From the NCBI GenBank assembly GCA_003818675.1, contig RPPD01000183.1:1-5453 (forward strand): 5,453 bases of DNA, read 5' to 3'. Position 1 is the stretch's first letter. The number at the start of each line of letters is the position of its first letter. Of the stretch, positions 1,823-5,453 are shown piece by piece. The position numbers were made by a program, and so were the translations under genes. The notes under the pieces are model-generated. The model was not told where the DNA came from, searched no databases, and saw only the letters and a program-made list of their open reading frames with translations. This DNA is from Spirochaetaceae bacterium (GTDB taxonomy: Bacteria > Spirochaetota > Spirochaetia > SZUA-6 > RPPD01).

Positions 1823-3016
1823 TCACGGCAGCATTTTCAGAAAGTTGTTGAATTCCGCGGAAACAGTACTTTCATCAAGCGGAACGGTTTTTTTGGCCAA
1901 AGAAACCAGGATGAGATTTCCGCTGACTTTGCCCGGGAATAATTCAGAAAAGCGCGACAATCCCGCCGTATCCGCCATTTTAGGCGTACCGGTCAATTTG
2001 ATTTCAACCGGCAACAGACTGTTTATGTCATTTTCTATGACAAGATCAATTTCCAGCTGGTTGTTGGTACGGAAATAAAATATTGGCGGTTGTTTCCCCT
2101 TGTGAATGAAATGCTTTATTGTTTCCTGGACAACGAAGTTCTCAAACAGTTTCCCGGCCATTGTTCCATTTGTCACATGATCAGGTGTTGTCAACCCGGC
2201 AAGATAGCAGACAAATCCGGTATCAAGAAAATATATTTTTGGCGCTTTTGTTATCCGTTTCCCGAGGTTGTTGTACCAGGGCATTAACGCATAAATAATC
2301 CTGCTTGCTTCAAGGACAGAAAGCCAGGATTTCAGGGTTGGAACAGATATGCCGAGATCGCGTCCAAAGTTGCTCAAGTTAAGCACCTCACCGCATCGTG
2401 CGGCAAGGAGCCTGAGGAACTGCTGGAATTCCCGCAGATTTCCGATGTTGTAAATCAATCGAACATCACGTTCAAGATAAGTCTGATAATATGAGCCGTA
2501 CCAGGTGTCACGGTTGATTGCATGATTTATGACAACTTCGGGATATGAGCCACGCAAACAGGCGCTTATATACTGTCTTTTTCTACCAGGCTGACTGCCT
2601 GCCTCTGGCATTTCCGTAACAGAGAAGGGCAGTAATTCCAGAATCGCAATGCGACCCGCAAGGGAATCCCCAATATTTTTCATAAGGGAAAATTGCTGTG
2701 ATCCTGTCAATACAAATCTTCCGTATTCGCCGCGGTTTTCATCAATACGGATTTTAATATACGATAGCAGTTCCGGAACATACTGAATCTCGTCGATTAT
2801 TATTTTATCTCCCATCTGTTCAAGAAACAGGTTGGGATCCGCAGCAGCCCGCTCCCGCTCAAGTGGATCATCGAATGTTATATATGAATAATCGGGTAAC
2901 AGGTTTTTTAAAAGGGTTGTTTTTCCAGATTGTCTGGGACCGGTAATCACTACAGCAGGAAAAGTGGAAATGGCATTCAGGGCCTGTTTTTCAAGATCAC
3001 GGTGAATATACTTCAT
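1823..3016 (-). CDS. AAA-family ATPase with C-terminal DUF4143 domain
   Basis: A full-length 397-aa protein of the AAA_14/DUF4143 family. The N-terminal ATPase has Walker A GPRQSGKTT (residues 26-34), Walker B KIIIDEIQ (71-78, with D75 and E76) and a sensor-like LTGSQQF (103-109). The DUF4143 part starts near LERDVRLIYNI (181-191) and includes YFLDTGFVCYLAG. Near the C-terminus, ExD in LEIDLVI (322-327) and VEIK (337-340), with FENFVVQE (291-298) before them, look like the acidic/Lys core of a PD-(D/E)XK nuclease. This is seen in many family members, but activity is unproven. These genes are common, usually single, often in variable regions; their cellular role is not established. The ATG at 3016 has no Shine-Dalgarno sequence and lies just downstream of the predicted promoter. 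Its stop is 56 nt from the lipoprotein stop on the other strand. Confidence 0.93.
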   Translation of the reverse strand: MKYIHRDLEKQALNAISTFPAVVITGPRQSGKTTLLKNLLPDYSYITFDDPLERERAAADPNLFLEQMGDKIIIDEIQYVPELLSYIKIRIDENRGEYGRFVLTGSQQFSLMKNIGDSLAGRIAILELLPFSVTEMPEAGSQPGRKRQYISACLRGSYPEVVINHAINRDTWYGSYYQTYLERDVRLIYNIGNLREFQQFLRLLAARCGEVLNLSNFGRDLGISVPTLKSWLSVLEASRIIYALMPWYNNLGKRITKAPKIYFLDTGFVCYLAGLTTPDHVTNGTMAGKLFENFVVQETIKHFIHKGKQPPIFYFRTNNQLEIDLVIENDINSLLPVEIKLTGTPKMADTAGLSRFSELFPGKVSGNLILVSLAKKTVPLDESTVSAEFNNFLKMLP

Positions 3017-3022
3017 ATTTTA

Positions 3023-3052
3023 ATTGTATGCAAAAATGGGGGAAAAGGTCAA
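3023..3052 (-). promoter_or_regulatory. Predicted promoter of the ATPase gene, giving a leaderless mRNA
   Basis: Read on the minus strand, TTGACC (3052-3047) and TACAAT (3028-3023) are separated by 18 bp. Only 6 nt lie between the -10 box and the ATG at 3016, so transcription should start at or within a base or two of the start codon. This matches the lack of a ribosome binding site. The -35 box is overlapped by the outer arm of the inverted repeat at 3049-3087. Confidence 0.6.
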
Positions 3053-3087
3053 TACATATTTAAAGTATCACTTTAAATATGTATTGA
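3049..3087. repeat. Perfect 17-bp inverted repeat, 5-nt loop; possible operator
   Basis: The arms at 3049-3065 and 3071-3087 are exact reverse complements (core CAATACATATTTAAAG / CTTTAAATATGTATTG) around the loop TATCA. It is AT-rich with no T-tract after it on either strand, so it is not a normal terminator. The left arm covers part of the predicted -35 box of the ATPase gene, which suits an operator or autoregulatory site. A decayed mobile-element end is another option. Confidence 0.85.
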
Positions 3088-3114
3088 GGCTATTAAGGCA
3101 ACGCCGTATATACA

Positions 3115-3153
3115 TTAGAACCCATGAATGAGGCGGGAAGGTAACATGCAGGT
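3115..3153 (+). repeat. 39-bp direct repeat, copy R1
   Basis: Matches 3600-3638 with a single G/A difference. Inside it GGGAAGG (3135-3141) lies 4 nt before ATG (3146), like a ribosome binding site and start codon, but the frame closes after MQVGKS. It may be the 5' relic of the gene whose 3' relic follows. It is separated from that relic by the 22-bp array. Confidence 0.9.
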
Positions 3154-3170
3154 TGGAAAAAGCTGATTTT

Positions 3171-3302
3171 TCGATTACAATCAGAGCAAGAATCGATTGT
3201 ACTTGGCGTAAATATCGATTTCACTCAAGGCAAATGTAGCTTAGACTTGCAGTAAATGTCGATTAGACCAGGGCTAAGTATCGATTACACAATGGTTTTC
3301 CA
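3171..3302 (+). repeat. Array of six degenerate 22-bp tandem repeats
   Basis: TCGATT occurs at 3171, 3193, 3215, 3259 and 3281, with TAGCTT at the expected place 3237, so the period is exactly 22 bp. Units share a longer pattern: TCGATT, two free bases, AC(T), four free bases, G, then YAARWR before the next TCGATT. The first unit reads AAT and the last loses the tail. 22 bp is not a multiple of three, so this is not coding. It is about two DNA turns, so bound protein would sit on one face. It could be a minisatellite or a multi-site operator or iteron-like array; no replication gene is nearby. Confidence 0.8.
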
Positions 3303-3327
3303 TACGCGAGAAAAATGGTTTCTGTAA

Positions 3328-3357
3328 GCGATAAAATCGCAAATATTCTATCGATAG
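3328..3357. repeat. Two small perfect palindromes
   Basis: GCGAT-AAA-ATCGC (3328-3340) is a 5-bp hairpin with a 3-nt loop, and CTATCGATAG (3348-3357) is a 10-bp palindrome. Both lie between the 22-bp array and relic A. The second shares TCGAT with the array units but is out of phase with them. Either could arise by chance. Confidence 0.4.
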
Positions 3358-3370
3358 TTTACTTCAGGAG

Positions 3371-3457
3371 AGAATAACTGGACGCCCTGTCAGATTTGCC
3401 ATTGTCGGGGTGAGCCTTACAGTTGCATATGTGGGGTATCTGGTGGTGAAGCTGGAT
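3371..3457 (+). pseudogene. Relic A: 3' end of a lipoprotein-like gene
   Basis: In one frame this reads RFAIVGVSLTVAYVGYLVVKLD, matching the last residues of the intact lipoprotein at 1311-1766 (FIIASSAGPYIVYVGHLIVKLD). The stop after KLD is gone, and the frame runs on through a decayed terminator to a TGA at 3524. Upstream the frame is closed at 3332 and has no start. DNA matches relic B (from 3678) closely for about 60 bases. Confidence 0.75.
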
Positions 3458-3462
3458 AAAAA

Positions 3463-3494
3463 AGCGCTGATCTGGTTGAGAAAGTGCGTTTTAT
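3463..3494 (+). other. Decayed terminator hairpin following relic A
   Basis: AGCGCTGATCTGGTTGAG followed by AAAGTGCGTTTTAT keeps the layout of the intact hairpin at 4670-4697 (AGCGCC arm, TTGTTG loop, GGCGCT arm) but the arms no longer pair well. The same decayed element recurs at 4503-4534, so these are homologous terminator remains. Confidence 0.5.
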
Positions 3495-3496
3495 AC

Positions 3497-3572
3497 TATC
3501 CTGTTTATCTTGTTAATCCTGTCTGAATTCACGTGGAAGAAATAGAATTTTGACAGGATCAACAGGATTGAC
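3497..3572. repeat. ATCCTGTT-type repeat in inverted arrangement
   Basis: TATCCTGTTTATCTTGTT continuing into AATCCTGTC (3497-3523) faces its near reverse complement, GACAGGATCAACAGGATTGAC (3552-3572 less the last base). The inner arms (GAATTC/GAATTT) extend the pairing. A related single copy lies at 4536-4553. Such ATCCTGTT-rich intergenic repeats occur in many unrelated genomes; no function is assigned. Confidence 0.7.
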
Positions 3573-3599
3573 TTAATTCCAAAAAAGCATATCTGGTCC

Positions 3600-3638
3600 T
3601 TAGAACCCATGAATGAGGCGAGAAGGTAACATGCAGGT
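3600..3638 (+). repeat. 39-bp direct repeat, copy R2
   Basis: Second copy of the repeat at 3115-3153, with A in place of G at the one differing position. Here it is followed within ~25 bases by relic B without the 22-bp array, which shows that R and the relic belong to one unit. The ATG at its end opens only MQVVKWW before a stop. Confidence 0.9.
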
Positions 3639-3662
3639 AGTAAAATGGTGGTAATTTCTTTT

Positions 3663-3755
3663 ATGACTATTACGCTTTAGAAAATAACTGTACGCCCTGC
3701 CAGATTTGCCATCAGCGGTGCGAGCCTGACAGTTGCATATGTGGGGCAACTTGCA
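3663..3755 (+). pseudogene. Relic B: 3' end of a lipoprotein-like gene, truncated
   Basis: The frame reads MTITL, stop, then KITVRPARFAISGASLTVAYVGQL, similar to DITVSIL and the C-terminus of the intact lipoprotein and to relics A and C. It breaks off after VGQL, just before the VVKLD ending, and the promoter of the second MNT-HEPN pair follows. The missing end appears to lie on the other side of that pair, at 4482-4534. Confidence 0.7.
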
Positions 3756-3791
3756 GCCCGGTGGTGTGATTTTTATTATTGCCCGTTCTGT

Positions 3792-3820
3792 TTGACAATA
3801 TAGATTCCTTGTATTAAAAT
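3792..3820 (+). promoter_or_regulatory. Strong predicted sigma70 promoter of the second MNT-HEPN operon
   Basis: A perfect TTGACA -35 (3792-3797), a 17-bp spacer and TAAAAT -10 (3815-3820). The start of transcription should fall near 3827, leaving a leader of about 14 nt with AAGGA at its very 5' end. This is the best-matching promoter in the window. Confidence 0.8.
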
Positions 3821-3840
3821 AATTTCAAGGAATGTCCGGA

Positions 3841-4140
3841 ATGTTTGATGTCAGAGATTACAGGGATCAAATAAAACAAATATGCCTCAAGTATGGTGTC
3901 AAAACCCTCGAAATATTTGGTTCCGTATTGCGTGATGATTTTTTGGATGCGAGTGATATCGACTTGTTTTATAAATTTATCGGTTCAAATGATCTCTTTG
4001 CCAGATATTATGGCTTGAAAGATGATCTGGAATCACTTTTTAAAAGAAAGGTTGATCTGATAAAAGAGGAAAACATAATCAATCCTTATATCCGAATGGC
4101 AATCAATGTTTCTCCCAGGATTATGGTATATGCAGCATGA
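3841..4140 (+). CDS. mntA: MNT-domain nucleotidyltransferase, MntA-type antitoxin (pair 2)
   Basis: A 99-aa minimal nucleotidyltransferase. GSX10DXD is complete: G27-S28 in IFGSVLRDD, D39 and D41 in ASDIDLF, and a third acidic residue, D72, in KKVDLI. The C-terminus NPYIRMAINVSPRIMVYAA is typical of antitoxins paired with DUF86 HEPN proteins. By family it should AMPylate and neutralise the HEPN partner. The start at 3841 is chosen because AAGGA (3827-3831) lies 9 nt upstream; an ATG at 3832 touches that site and would be nearly leaderless. It overlaps the next gene by 11 nt. It is clearly diverged from the first MNT gene, so this is not a recent local duplication. It looks intact and sits between two pieces of a decayed lipoprotein gene end. 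Confidence 0.9.
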   Translation: MFDVRDYRDQIKQICLKYGVKTLEIFGSVLRDDFLDASDIDLFYKFIGSNDLFARYYGLKDDLESLFKRKVDLIKEENIINPYIRMAINVSPRIMVYAA

Positions 4141-4441
4141 TTCAAAGGCATATCTTTCGGATATACAGGCTGCATCCGCAAGAATTCTTGATTTTGCCGC
4201 AAACCGTAGCATGGAAGAATTAAAGATGGATATTTTATTCAAATCAGCAGTAGAGCGACAATTTGAAATTGCCGGTGAGGCACTGAATCGGCTGGACAGG
4301 TATTTTCCAGAAATCGCCGGGGAAATTACCAATGTCAGGAAAATTGTGGATTTCAGAAACCTCCTGACCCATGGATATGATATTATTGGCCGCAGCAAAA
4401 CGATTGTCAAACTGGTCCTGCACAGTCAAGGAATTTACTGA
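4130..4441 (+). pseudogene. hepT: HEPN-domain toxin, HepT-type (pair 2), with frameshifted C-terminus
   Basis: The frame from ATG 4130 (AGGA at 4117-4120) gives 103 aa. It starts MQHDSKAYLSDI, carries AVERQFEIAGEALNRL and the catalytic motif RX4HXY (R76, H81, Y83 in FRNLLTHGYDI), all typical of DUF86 HEPN RNases. After TIV (91-93) the expected VW helix is missing and the frame ends in KLVLHSQGIY. Shifting by one base at the AAA run 4409-4411 gives NWSCTVKEFTELLEEKCP, which fits the last helix (compare IVWNIVEKHLPSL in the first HEPN gene) and runs open to a TAG at 4521-4523. So there is probably a single-base insertion, real or a sequencing error. The catalytic motif precedes the break, so some activity may remain. 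The antitoxin gene is intact. Confidence 0.75.
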
Positions 4442-4481
4442 ATTGCTTGAGGAAAAATGCCCCTGGTGTATTATGCTGGCA

Positions 4482-4534
4482 GGCGGATTGGAAAGAAAAT
4501 ATGCGCCAGCTTGGTCGAGATAGTACGTTTTATT
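4482..4534 (+). pseudogene. Fragment D: last codon region and decayed terminator of a lipoprotein-like gene
   Basis: GGCGGATTGGAAAGAAAATA and the following GCGCCAGCTTG match the end of relic C and its terminator (GCTGGATTAGGAGAAAAAG, then GCGCCAGCCTTG), with few differences. Further on, CGAGATAGTACGTTTTAT parallels the decayed terminator behind relic A. No coding part before the final codon is left here, and relic B, upstream of the MNT-HEPN pair, lacks just this end. Confidence 0.55.
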
Positions 4535-4535
4535 C

Positions 4536-4553
4536 TATCCTGTTAATCCTGTC
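4536..4553 (+). repeat. ATCCTGTT-type repeat, single copy
   Basis: TATCCTGTTAATCCTGTC repeats the sequence at 3497-3523 minus a 9-base internal segment. In both places it directly follows a decayed terminator with CGTTTTAT, so it is part of the duplicated unit. Confidence 0.7.
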
Positions 4554-4564
4554 AAAAATACCCT

Positions 4565-4659
4565 ATGACTATTACGCTTAAGAAAAACACATATTTACAA
4601 TCGGCAGTGCGAGCTTGACAGTTGCATATGTGGCACATCTTGTAGTGAAGCTGGATTAG
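4565..4659 (+). pseudogene. Relic C: 3' end of a lipoprotein-like gene with stop and terminator
   Basis: Begins with ATGACTATTACGCTT, shared with relic B, then shifts frame after a ~10-base deletion. It reads FTIGSASLTVAYVAHLVVKLD before a TAG at 4657-4659. It keeps the ancestral stop codon and is followed 11 nt later by the hairpin. The frame is closed at 4579 upstream, so no protein is expected. Confidence 0.72.
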
Positions 4660-4669
4660 GAGAAAAAGA

Positions 4670-4697
4670 AAGCGCCAGCCTTGTTGGGCTGGCGCTT
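4670..4697 (-). terminator. Rho-independent terminator of the minus-strand gene
   Basis: An 11-bp perfect GC-rich stem (AGCGCCAGCC / GGCTGGCGCT plus one A-T pair) with loop TTGTTG. On the minus strand it is followed by TTCTTTTTC, a good U-tract, and it lies 25 nt past the stop of the gene at 4723. On the plus strand it follows relic C, but no T-run comes after, so plus-strand termination would be weak. Confidence 0.85.
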
Positions 4698-4722
4698 GTA
4701 AAAAACAGATTTAGGGATACTA

Positions 4723-5453
4723 CTAAAAGGCTTCAAGGATCAATTTCCCTGCAAGGGCGCGATGTATGGATCCAGAAGAACGGGCGTAAATGGGGATTTC
4801 CACAATGCTTGTGTTATTGAATTCAGAAAGATAAATTTTATTTTCCTGTCCATCAGCAGAATAATCCCATTCATTATCACCTGAGTCCCAGATATAATTA
4901 TCCCAGCCAAAAGATAATGACAAATATGCTTTTTCTAGTGCATAACCGTCATTAAAAAAAGTGAGAAAACCAATATCAACCTCTTTTTCATCATGATATC
5001 CTGGATTTATTATAGAAAACTGTGGAAATGATTGCTGGCTAGCAACGCCGTAATCGTCATATCCGCGAAGTAAACTTACATTACCATTTATAGAATTTGG
5101 AGTAGAATTTGATCCCCACGGTTCACAGATATTGTAATTATATACAAGTTTTGAAATTCTGACGCGGCAATACTTAGGATATACTACTGGTGCATCCTCA
5201 CCTACAACAACACGTTTATAGTACTCTGTTGCAAGGACCACTTTTGCCGTTGTTCTGTCCTTGAGATATGTCAGAGTATAGGATAATGGAACAACTTCGG
5301 CAAATCCAATTCCGGAAGTTTTGCATCCGGTTATCCAGTCAAAGAATCCATCTGATGTAAAAATTAAGCTGGCACCCCCATATGAGCCGCCAAATACCTG
5401 TACAGATATTTCAATTTCTGAAAGAACCTGTTGTTGCTCTGCTGTAATTGACC
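4723..5453 (-). CDS. Hypothetical protein, C-terminal 242 residues (5' end outside window)
   Basis: The frame is open from the stop at 4723 to the right edge with no stop. It has no ATG; a GTG at 5241 is internal because 70 further sense codons precede it. I do not recognise the family. The visible part is rich in Gly, Ser, Tyr, Asn and Asp, with alternating hydrophobic residues that suggest beta strands (for example IEISVQVFGGSYGGASLIF and VDIGFLTFF). It also has a Trp/Asp-rich stretch, FGWDNYIWDSGDNEWDY. There is no membrane segment or catalytic motif in this part. A secreted or surface beta-rich protein is possible but unproven. It ends with a good terminator. It is convergent with the second MNT-HEPN pair and AT-rich like its neighbours. 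Confidence 0.75.
   Translation of the reverse strand, partial: SITAEQQQVLSEIEISVQVFGGSYGGASLIFTSDGFFDWITGCKTSGIGFAEVVPLSYTLTYLKDRTTAKVVLATEYYKRVVVGEDAPVVYPKYCRVRISKLVYNYNICEPWGSNSTPNSINGNVSLLRGYDDYGVASQQSFPQFSIINPGYHDEKEVDIGFLTFFNDGYALEKAYLSLSFGWDNYIWDSGDNEWDYSADGQENKIYLSEFNNTSIVEIPIYARSSGSIHRALAGKLILEAF

Follow-up and report, generated by a model that had tools for sequence, protein, structure and literature searches.

The window, i.e., the whole stretch of 5,453 nucleotides analysed here, begins with the C-terminus of a BipA gene, recognized by 83% identity to a locus of a Spirochaetales genome (L001, the best of 134 confirmed stretches, of which 80 were kept), which makes the host an uncultured spirochaete. 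The BipA end is followed by a first MntA-HepT pair (pair 1, 587-1241), an intact lipoprotein gene on the plus strand (1311-1766), a minus-strand gene for an AAA_14/DUF4143 ATPase (1823-3016), a region of gene relics belonging to the lipoprotein family (3115-4698), and a partial right-hand gene on the minus strand (4723-5451). Within the relic region, a second MntA-HepT pair (pair 2, 3832-4441) lies between relic B and a piece referred to as fragment D. The best PADLOC models for the two pairs differed, and at another locus (L098) an MNT1-like pair was located directly before an MNT2-like gene. The AAA_14/DUF4143 gene is immediately preceded, on its upstream side, by an 18-base inverted repeat that has no mismatches and a loop of 3 bases (3049-3087), a possible operator; relatives of the gene were present in 47 of 61 genomes, and its family is listed by PADLOC as PDC-S01. 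A single contig of another genome (G005:C94, L118) also carried kin of the lipoprotein and kin of the right-hand gene, separated by approximately 9 kb.

Relics A, B, and C all read on the plus strand. Relic A comprises a start piece (3115..3165), a tail with a complete end (3369..3457; repeat families D1 and D2) reading up to VAYVGYLVVKLD, and a post-tail stretch with a decayed hairpin (3458..3495). In relic B, a start piece (3600..3650), recognized by its likeness to that of A (46 of 51 bases identical), precedes a truncated lipoprotein-gene tail (3662..3751). Relic C consists of a tail (4564..4656), which has 22 of 23 bases in common with B (4564-4586 compared to the stretch from 3662), and an intact hairpin 3′ of it (4670..4697, no strand assigned). 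A and B are without their middles and C is without a start piece; that the start pieces were part of the lipoprotein gene is suggested by their position only. The tails were clearly related to one another, with scores reached by 0 of 300 shuffles for each of the pairs A-B, C-B, and C-A, and with 62 of 73 identical bases between B and A (3679-3751 compared to 3369-3441). Translated in the expected frame, the A tail matched residues 140 to 151, the last 12 of the 151-residue intact lipoprotein, and the C tail matched its last 17 residues (0/1000 shuffles for both). B alone gave no alignment to the lipoprotein end; since B lacks the last residues, its best match was found elsewhere, at residues 107 to 118 (3/1000 shuffles), and it was thus identified by how closely it resembles A and C. 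We also considered whether the intact gene was the direct parent of the relics. At the DNA level, it resembled A marginally (1/300 shuffles), and its likeness to B (195/300) or to D plus C (34/300) did not exceed chance. It is more likely that the relics descend from a relative of the intact gene than from that gene itself. The interval between the start piece and the tail of relic A contained a 22-base unit, built around TCGATT, in six degenerate copies (3163-3295), with an iteron-like look and an autocorrelation of 0.57 at 22 (0/1000 shuffles as good); Tandem Repeats Finder listed a two-copy 22-base array at 3291-3336 only, and not this one.

Fragment D (4485..4533, plus strand) is a decayed stretch of the kind that follows the tail in the other relics. 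In narrow windows, none of 1000 shuffles equalled its similarity to the post-tail of A or to that of C, whichever of three scorings was used, so that the homology of D to the end of relic C, on which the preliminary description of this DNA had made its case depend, was borne out, as was a homology to A. In wider windows, the similarity to A still stood at 0/300 and 0/1000 shuffles, and that to C was weaker, with 2/300 and 14/1000 shuffles as good. D and A were identical at 37 of 44 bases, and at 19 of 22 once a dispersed palindromic repeat, here called the CCTGT repeat, had been removed. The explanation that this likeness was merely due to the dispersed repeat was rejected: the 35 bases to the left of 16 exact repeat copies (in L010, L088, L089, L114, and L124-L135, taking the best of five offsets for each) matched D at 9 to 14 positions and A at 8 to 15, whereas A and D share 24.

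The hairpins of the three post-tail stretches differed in their state of preservation. The C hairpin was intact (−24.4 kcal/mol on the plus and −22.1 kcal/mol on the minus strand, 0/200 shuffles as good on each), the A hairpin was weaker (−11.2 kcal/mol, 5/200), and the D hairpin was decayed, as previously described (−6.7 kcal/mol, 135/200 shuffles folding as well). On the minus strand, a T-run comes after the C hairpin, which is terminator-like there and situated directly downstream of the minus-strand gene 4723-5451; a role as the terminator of that gene would be a likely reason for its being the only copy to survive.

Pair 2, of a kind that is small and common in bacteria, consists of mntA-2 (3832..4140, plus strand), encoding 102 residues from the first ATG with an MNT domain (Pfam PF01909/PF18765), and hepT-2 (4130..4441, plus strand; 103 residues, PF01934). 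Before mntA-2 there is a promoter-like site, TTGACA-17-TAAAAT (3792..3820, plus strand), which is so called from an 11 of 12 consensus match only and whose second hexamer ends 12 bases 5′ of the first ATG. MntA adenylylates HepT, and the motifs GSX10DXD in MntA and RX4HXY in HepT define the system, according to PMC7641770. Pair 2 resembles the Class I type VII MntA-HepT systems in having neighbouring genes of PF01909 and PF01934, GSX10DXD at residue 30 of mntA-2, and RX4HXY at residue 76 of hepT-2. It differs from them by scores below the NCBIfam equivalog cut-off of 60 bits (33.1 and 20.5; pair 1 was also below, with 46.2 and 45.5) and by the C-terminal part of hepT-2, which is out of frame. 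The family-profile match of hepT-2 stopped at residue 88 of 103, short of full length. For comparison, 114 of 119 listed homologs passed a filter of 95 to 125 residues, with a median length of 114 and a range of 97 to 123, and 2 of these 114 length-filtered homologs were shorter than 104 residues. The rest of the last helix is seemingly encoded in another frame (judged by eye, the profile not having detected it); the hepT-2 frame stops at 4441, and this other frame continues into D, to 4523. The right joint therefore lies in or near the former end of hepT, and, given a family match only to residue 88, pair 2 looks worn and its right joint is not clean. Without the C-terminal part of the family in frame, pair 2 may be half dead. 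It was considered whether the joints and the loss of frame in hepT arose from a chimeric assembly or a sequencing error. The window appears to be one entire metagenome contig of 5453 bases, which is compatible with such an artefact; against it, the cluster of the 103-residue hepT product at 90% identity was counted on two contigs, including that of the window, although the second is perhaps not an independent assembly. We regard an artefact as quite improbable.

Having stated that B stops without a continuation and that D begins about where B stops, the preliminary description made of B plus D a complete tail as in C. The first of these points was confirmed. The sequence to the right of B (3752-3831) matched neither the post-tail of A (equalled by 306, 330, and 54 of 1000 shuffles in narrow windows, one figure for each of three scorings, and by 139/1000 in a wider one) nor that of C (861, 658, and 969 of 1000; 993/1000 in the wider window). 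Conversely, the sequence to the left of D (4442-4489) did not match the tails of A, B, or C, with 280 to 763 of 1000 shuffles as good under the three scorings. The similarity of B ended at 3746 when compared to A, or at 3756 when compared to C, corresponding to 3436-3446 in A coordinates, and D started near 4485, corresponding to 3454 in A. The end of B and the start of D are thus complementary within the repeat unit except for 7 to 17 bases. In one alignment, the start of D was pulled back to 4464, where it would overlap with B, and this extension was rejected, not being significant by itself; the right boundary is thus uncertain between 4464 and 4485, which counts against a clean insertion. 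Taken together, the two pieces do complement each other as had been claimed, but the unit that they form is 7 to 17 bases short, and the best match of D is A rather than C.

We infer the splitting of one unit from the way in which B and D complement each other as parts of a single repeat unit. The best explanation, which we hold to be somewhat more probable than all others combined, is that a single decayed relic unit (B plus D) was split by the insertion of MntA-HepT pair 2. B and D have also diverged from A to about the same degree (62/73 and 37/44), as would be expected for the halves of one copy. Alternatively, two different decayed copies could flank an older pair, with separate deletions having removed the end of B and the front of D, and the two never having been joined. 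Several damaged copies are already present in the region (A and B without their middles, C without its start piece), and the 3′ part of hepT is itself worn beside D. Moreover, when breakpoints were placed at random in the 126-base unit (uniform model), they fell within 7 bases of each other in 0.12 and within 17 bases in 0.26 of cases; the observed closeness of B and D favours a single insertion but falls short of proof. Two flanking copies would nevertheless require two independent events meeting at a nearly identical position of the unit, and B and D are about equally distant from A; we consider this alternative rather unlikely. The splitting of one unit by pair 2, i.e., the entry of a promoter-mntA-hepT module into an existing gene end as proposed in the preliminary description, is the simplest reading and agrees with the homology of D to C and A, but breakpoints this close would still arise by chance at the frequencies given above.

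Less could be retained of the proposal that the locus bears a datable insertion scar. The suggested worn target duplication, TGCCCGTTCTGT (3780) and TGCCCCTGGTGT (4458, and not 4459 as had been stated), agrees at 9 of 12 bases, and 494 of 1000 shuffled flank pairs reached 9. It was rejected as being at chance level, short of the target-site duplication demanded of a transposon-borne insertion. No transposase was found among the eight open reading frames checked against Pfam, and no inverted pair of at least 14 nt was present at the joints of pair 2. Approximately 30 to 40 bases on either flank of the pair could be attributed to neither the pair nor the relic, which we count against an insertion. 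Given also the worn end of hepT at the joint and the frequency at which random breakpoints come this close, the locus bears no scar that could be dated. Since neither a transposase nor terminal repeats nor a target duplication above chance level was seen, the joining was probably by illegitimate recombination, with the loss of a few target bases. The course of events would then have begun with the copying and decay of a lipoprotein gene end, as is seen in relics A, B, and C; one unit, B plus D, would later have been interrupted by a type VII MntA-HepT pair that had been acquired horizontally and had its own promoter-like site. By analogy to known MntA-HepT systems, the MntA of pair 2 would adenylylate its HepT, an RNase, at the RX4HXY tyrosine, and the relic would have been a harmless landing place only, without a function of its own.

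A full copy of the CCTGT palindrome (3496..3576, plus strand; −28 kcal/mol, 0/200 shuffles) lies between relics A and B, and a half copy (4534..4557, plus strand; repeat family I1) follows fragment D. Their arms are inverted relative to each other (3548-3576 and 4529-4557, with 952 nt in between). Recombination between the CCTGT palindromes, or between the relic repeats, could on this basis have imported pair 2 together with D from elsewhere in the genome, all the more as several copies of this repeat are present in some of the spirochaete genomes. The joints between B and the pair and between the pair and D are, however, both outside the palindrome, and such an event seems improbable. Palindromes with ATCCTGTTAATCCTGTC-like arms were also observed in unrelated bacteria, at a Desulfobacteraceae locus (L010) and in several spirochaetes (among the loci, L088-L090, L114, and L124-L135). 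Among 198 genomes of the phylum, four had exact copies of a 17-mer of the repeat (11, 9, 1, and 1 copies), and the reversed control gave none; a text search with 16 letters of it led to no paper.

A search of relatives, genomes of the phylum, and BipA loci returned no genome with this locus, either with or without the pair, and hence no empty site, which we count against the insertion. In the closest BipA relative (L001), the contig ends with BipA, and there was thus no downstream DNA to compare. When the window proteins were compared by tblastn to 90 loci, including 80 BipA loci, the BipA loci gave no match for the lipoprotein, for HepT, for AAA_14, or for the right-hand gene, and one MNT1-like stretch was detected (L016). 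For the DNA itself, the interval 3100-3800 gave three matches in 61 relatives, all in one genome and all within the CCTGT repeat, and of 392 genomes sampled from the phylum, just one matched 3600-3756, once and over 26 bases (E 9.2e-4). Searches of plasmids with 3000-4720 and of phages with 3600-4720 gave no match, two sequence patterns had 0 matches in viral contigs, and none of 18 pattern matches to mntA-2 in viral contigs was a relative. The antitoxin family was patchily distributed, being present in 33 of 61 relatives and in neither G001 nor G005, which speaks for an insertion of pair 2. Distant kin of the lipoprotein were found in 4 of 61 relative genomes (best identity 45%), the same four being positive among 26 genomes of the order. 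A protein search of 5.8 billion proteins, which reaches only relatives with short exact words in common, gave, among 67 candidates for the lipoprotein, two records, itself and one at 62%. We rejected the idea that the pair travels with the lipoprotein family: by tblastn with both MNTs and both HepTs (E up to 0.01), no MNT or HepT was detected at seven of seven lipoprotein places in relatives (L081-L087, approximately 3 kb each; 19 to 20 kb for five places, L118 and L120-L123).

In our judgement, the movement of toxin-antitoxin pairs without a transposase is poorly understood. A duplicated target, such as relic A here, can act as an internal control that shows the state before breakage, and is one way of reading joints when no sister genome is at hand. 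One worn case, with joints as fuzzy as these, does not settle how toxin-antitoxin pairs move. It could be speculated that MntA-HepT pairs move without a transposase and prefer repeat-rich gene ends, with a terminator hairpin and a CCTGT palindrome, and that relic arrays record their arrivals; we think this generalization very unlikely to hold. MNT-HEPN pairs recently inserted or lost between related genomes have been described for Deinococcus and for the lysine operon of Thermus in a 2009 paper (PMC2701414). As in these cases, pair 2 would lie inside an otherwise continuous locus; they differ in comparing related genomes, whereas the present case was deduced from repeats in one contig, with a relic as the target. 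The insertion of pair 2, if correctly read, is a further, worn example of an already known kind. Judged by titles and the openings of abstracts, no paper was found on insertion of a toxin-antitoxin pair into a pseudogene with target site duplication.

Finally, the intact lipoprotein itself carries a lipoprotein-type signal, as recognized by eye. Its predicted structure (pLDDT 85.7, pTM 0.71, from 7 sequences) resembled the heads of phage receptor-binding proteins, with gp15 of Listeria phage PSA as the best PDB match (E 9.3e-5, TM 0.53). Furthermore, 65 viral models matched at E up to 0.001, and several among the 50 listed were named phage tail proteins. Judging from these models, the lipoprotein is possibly a domesticated phage fibre head.
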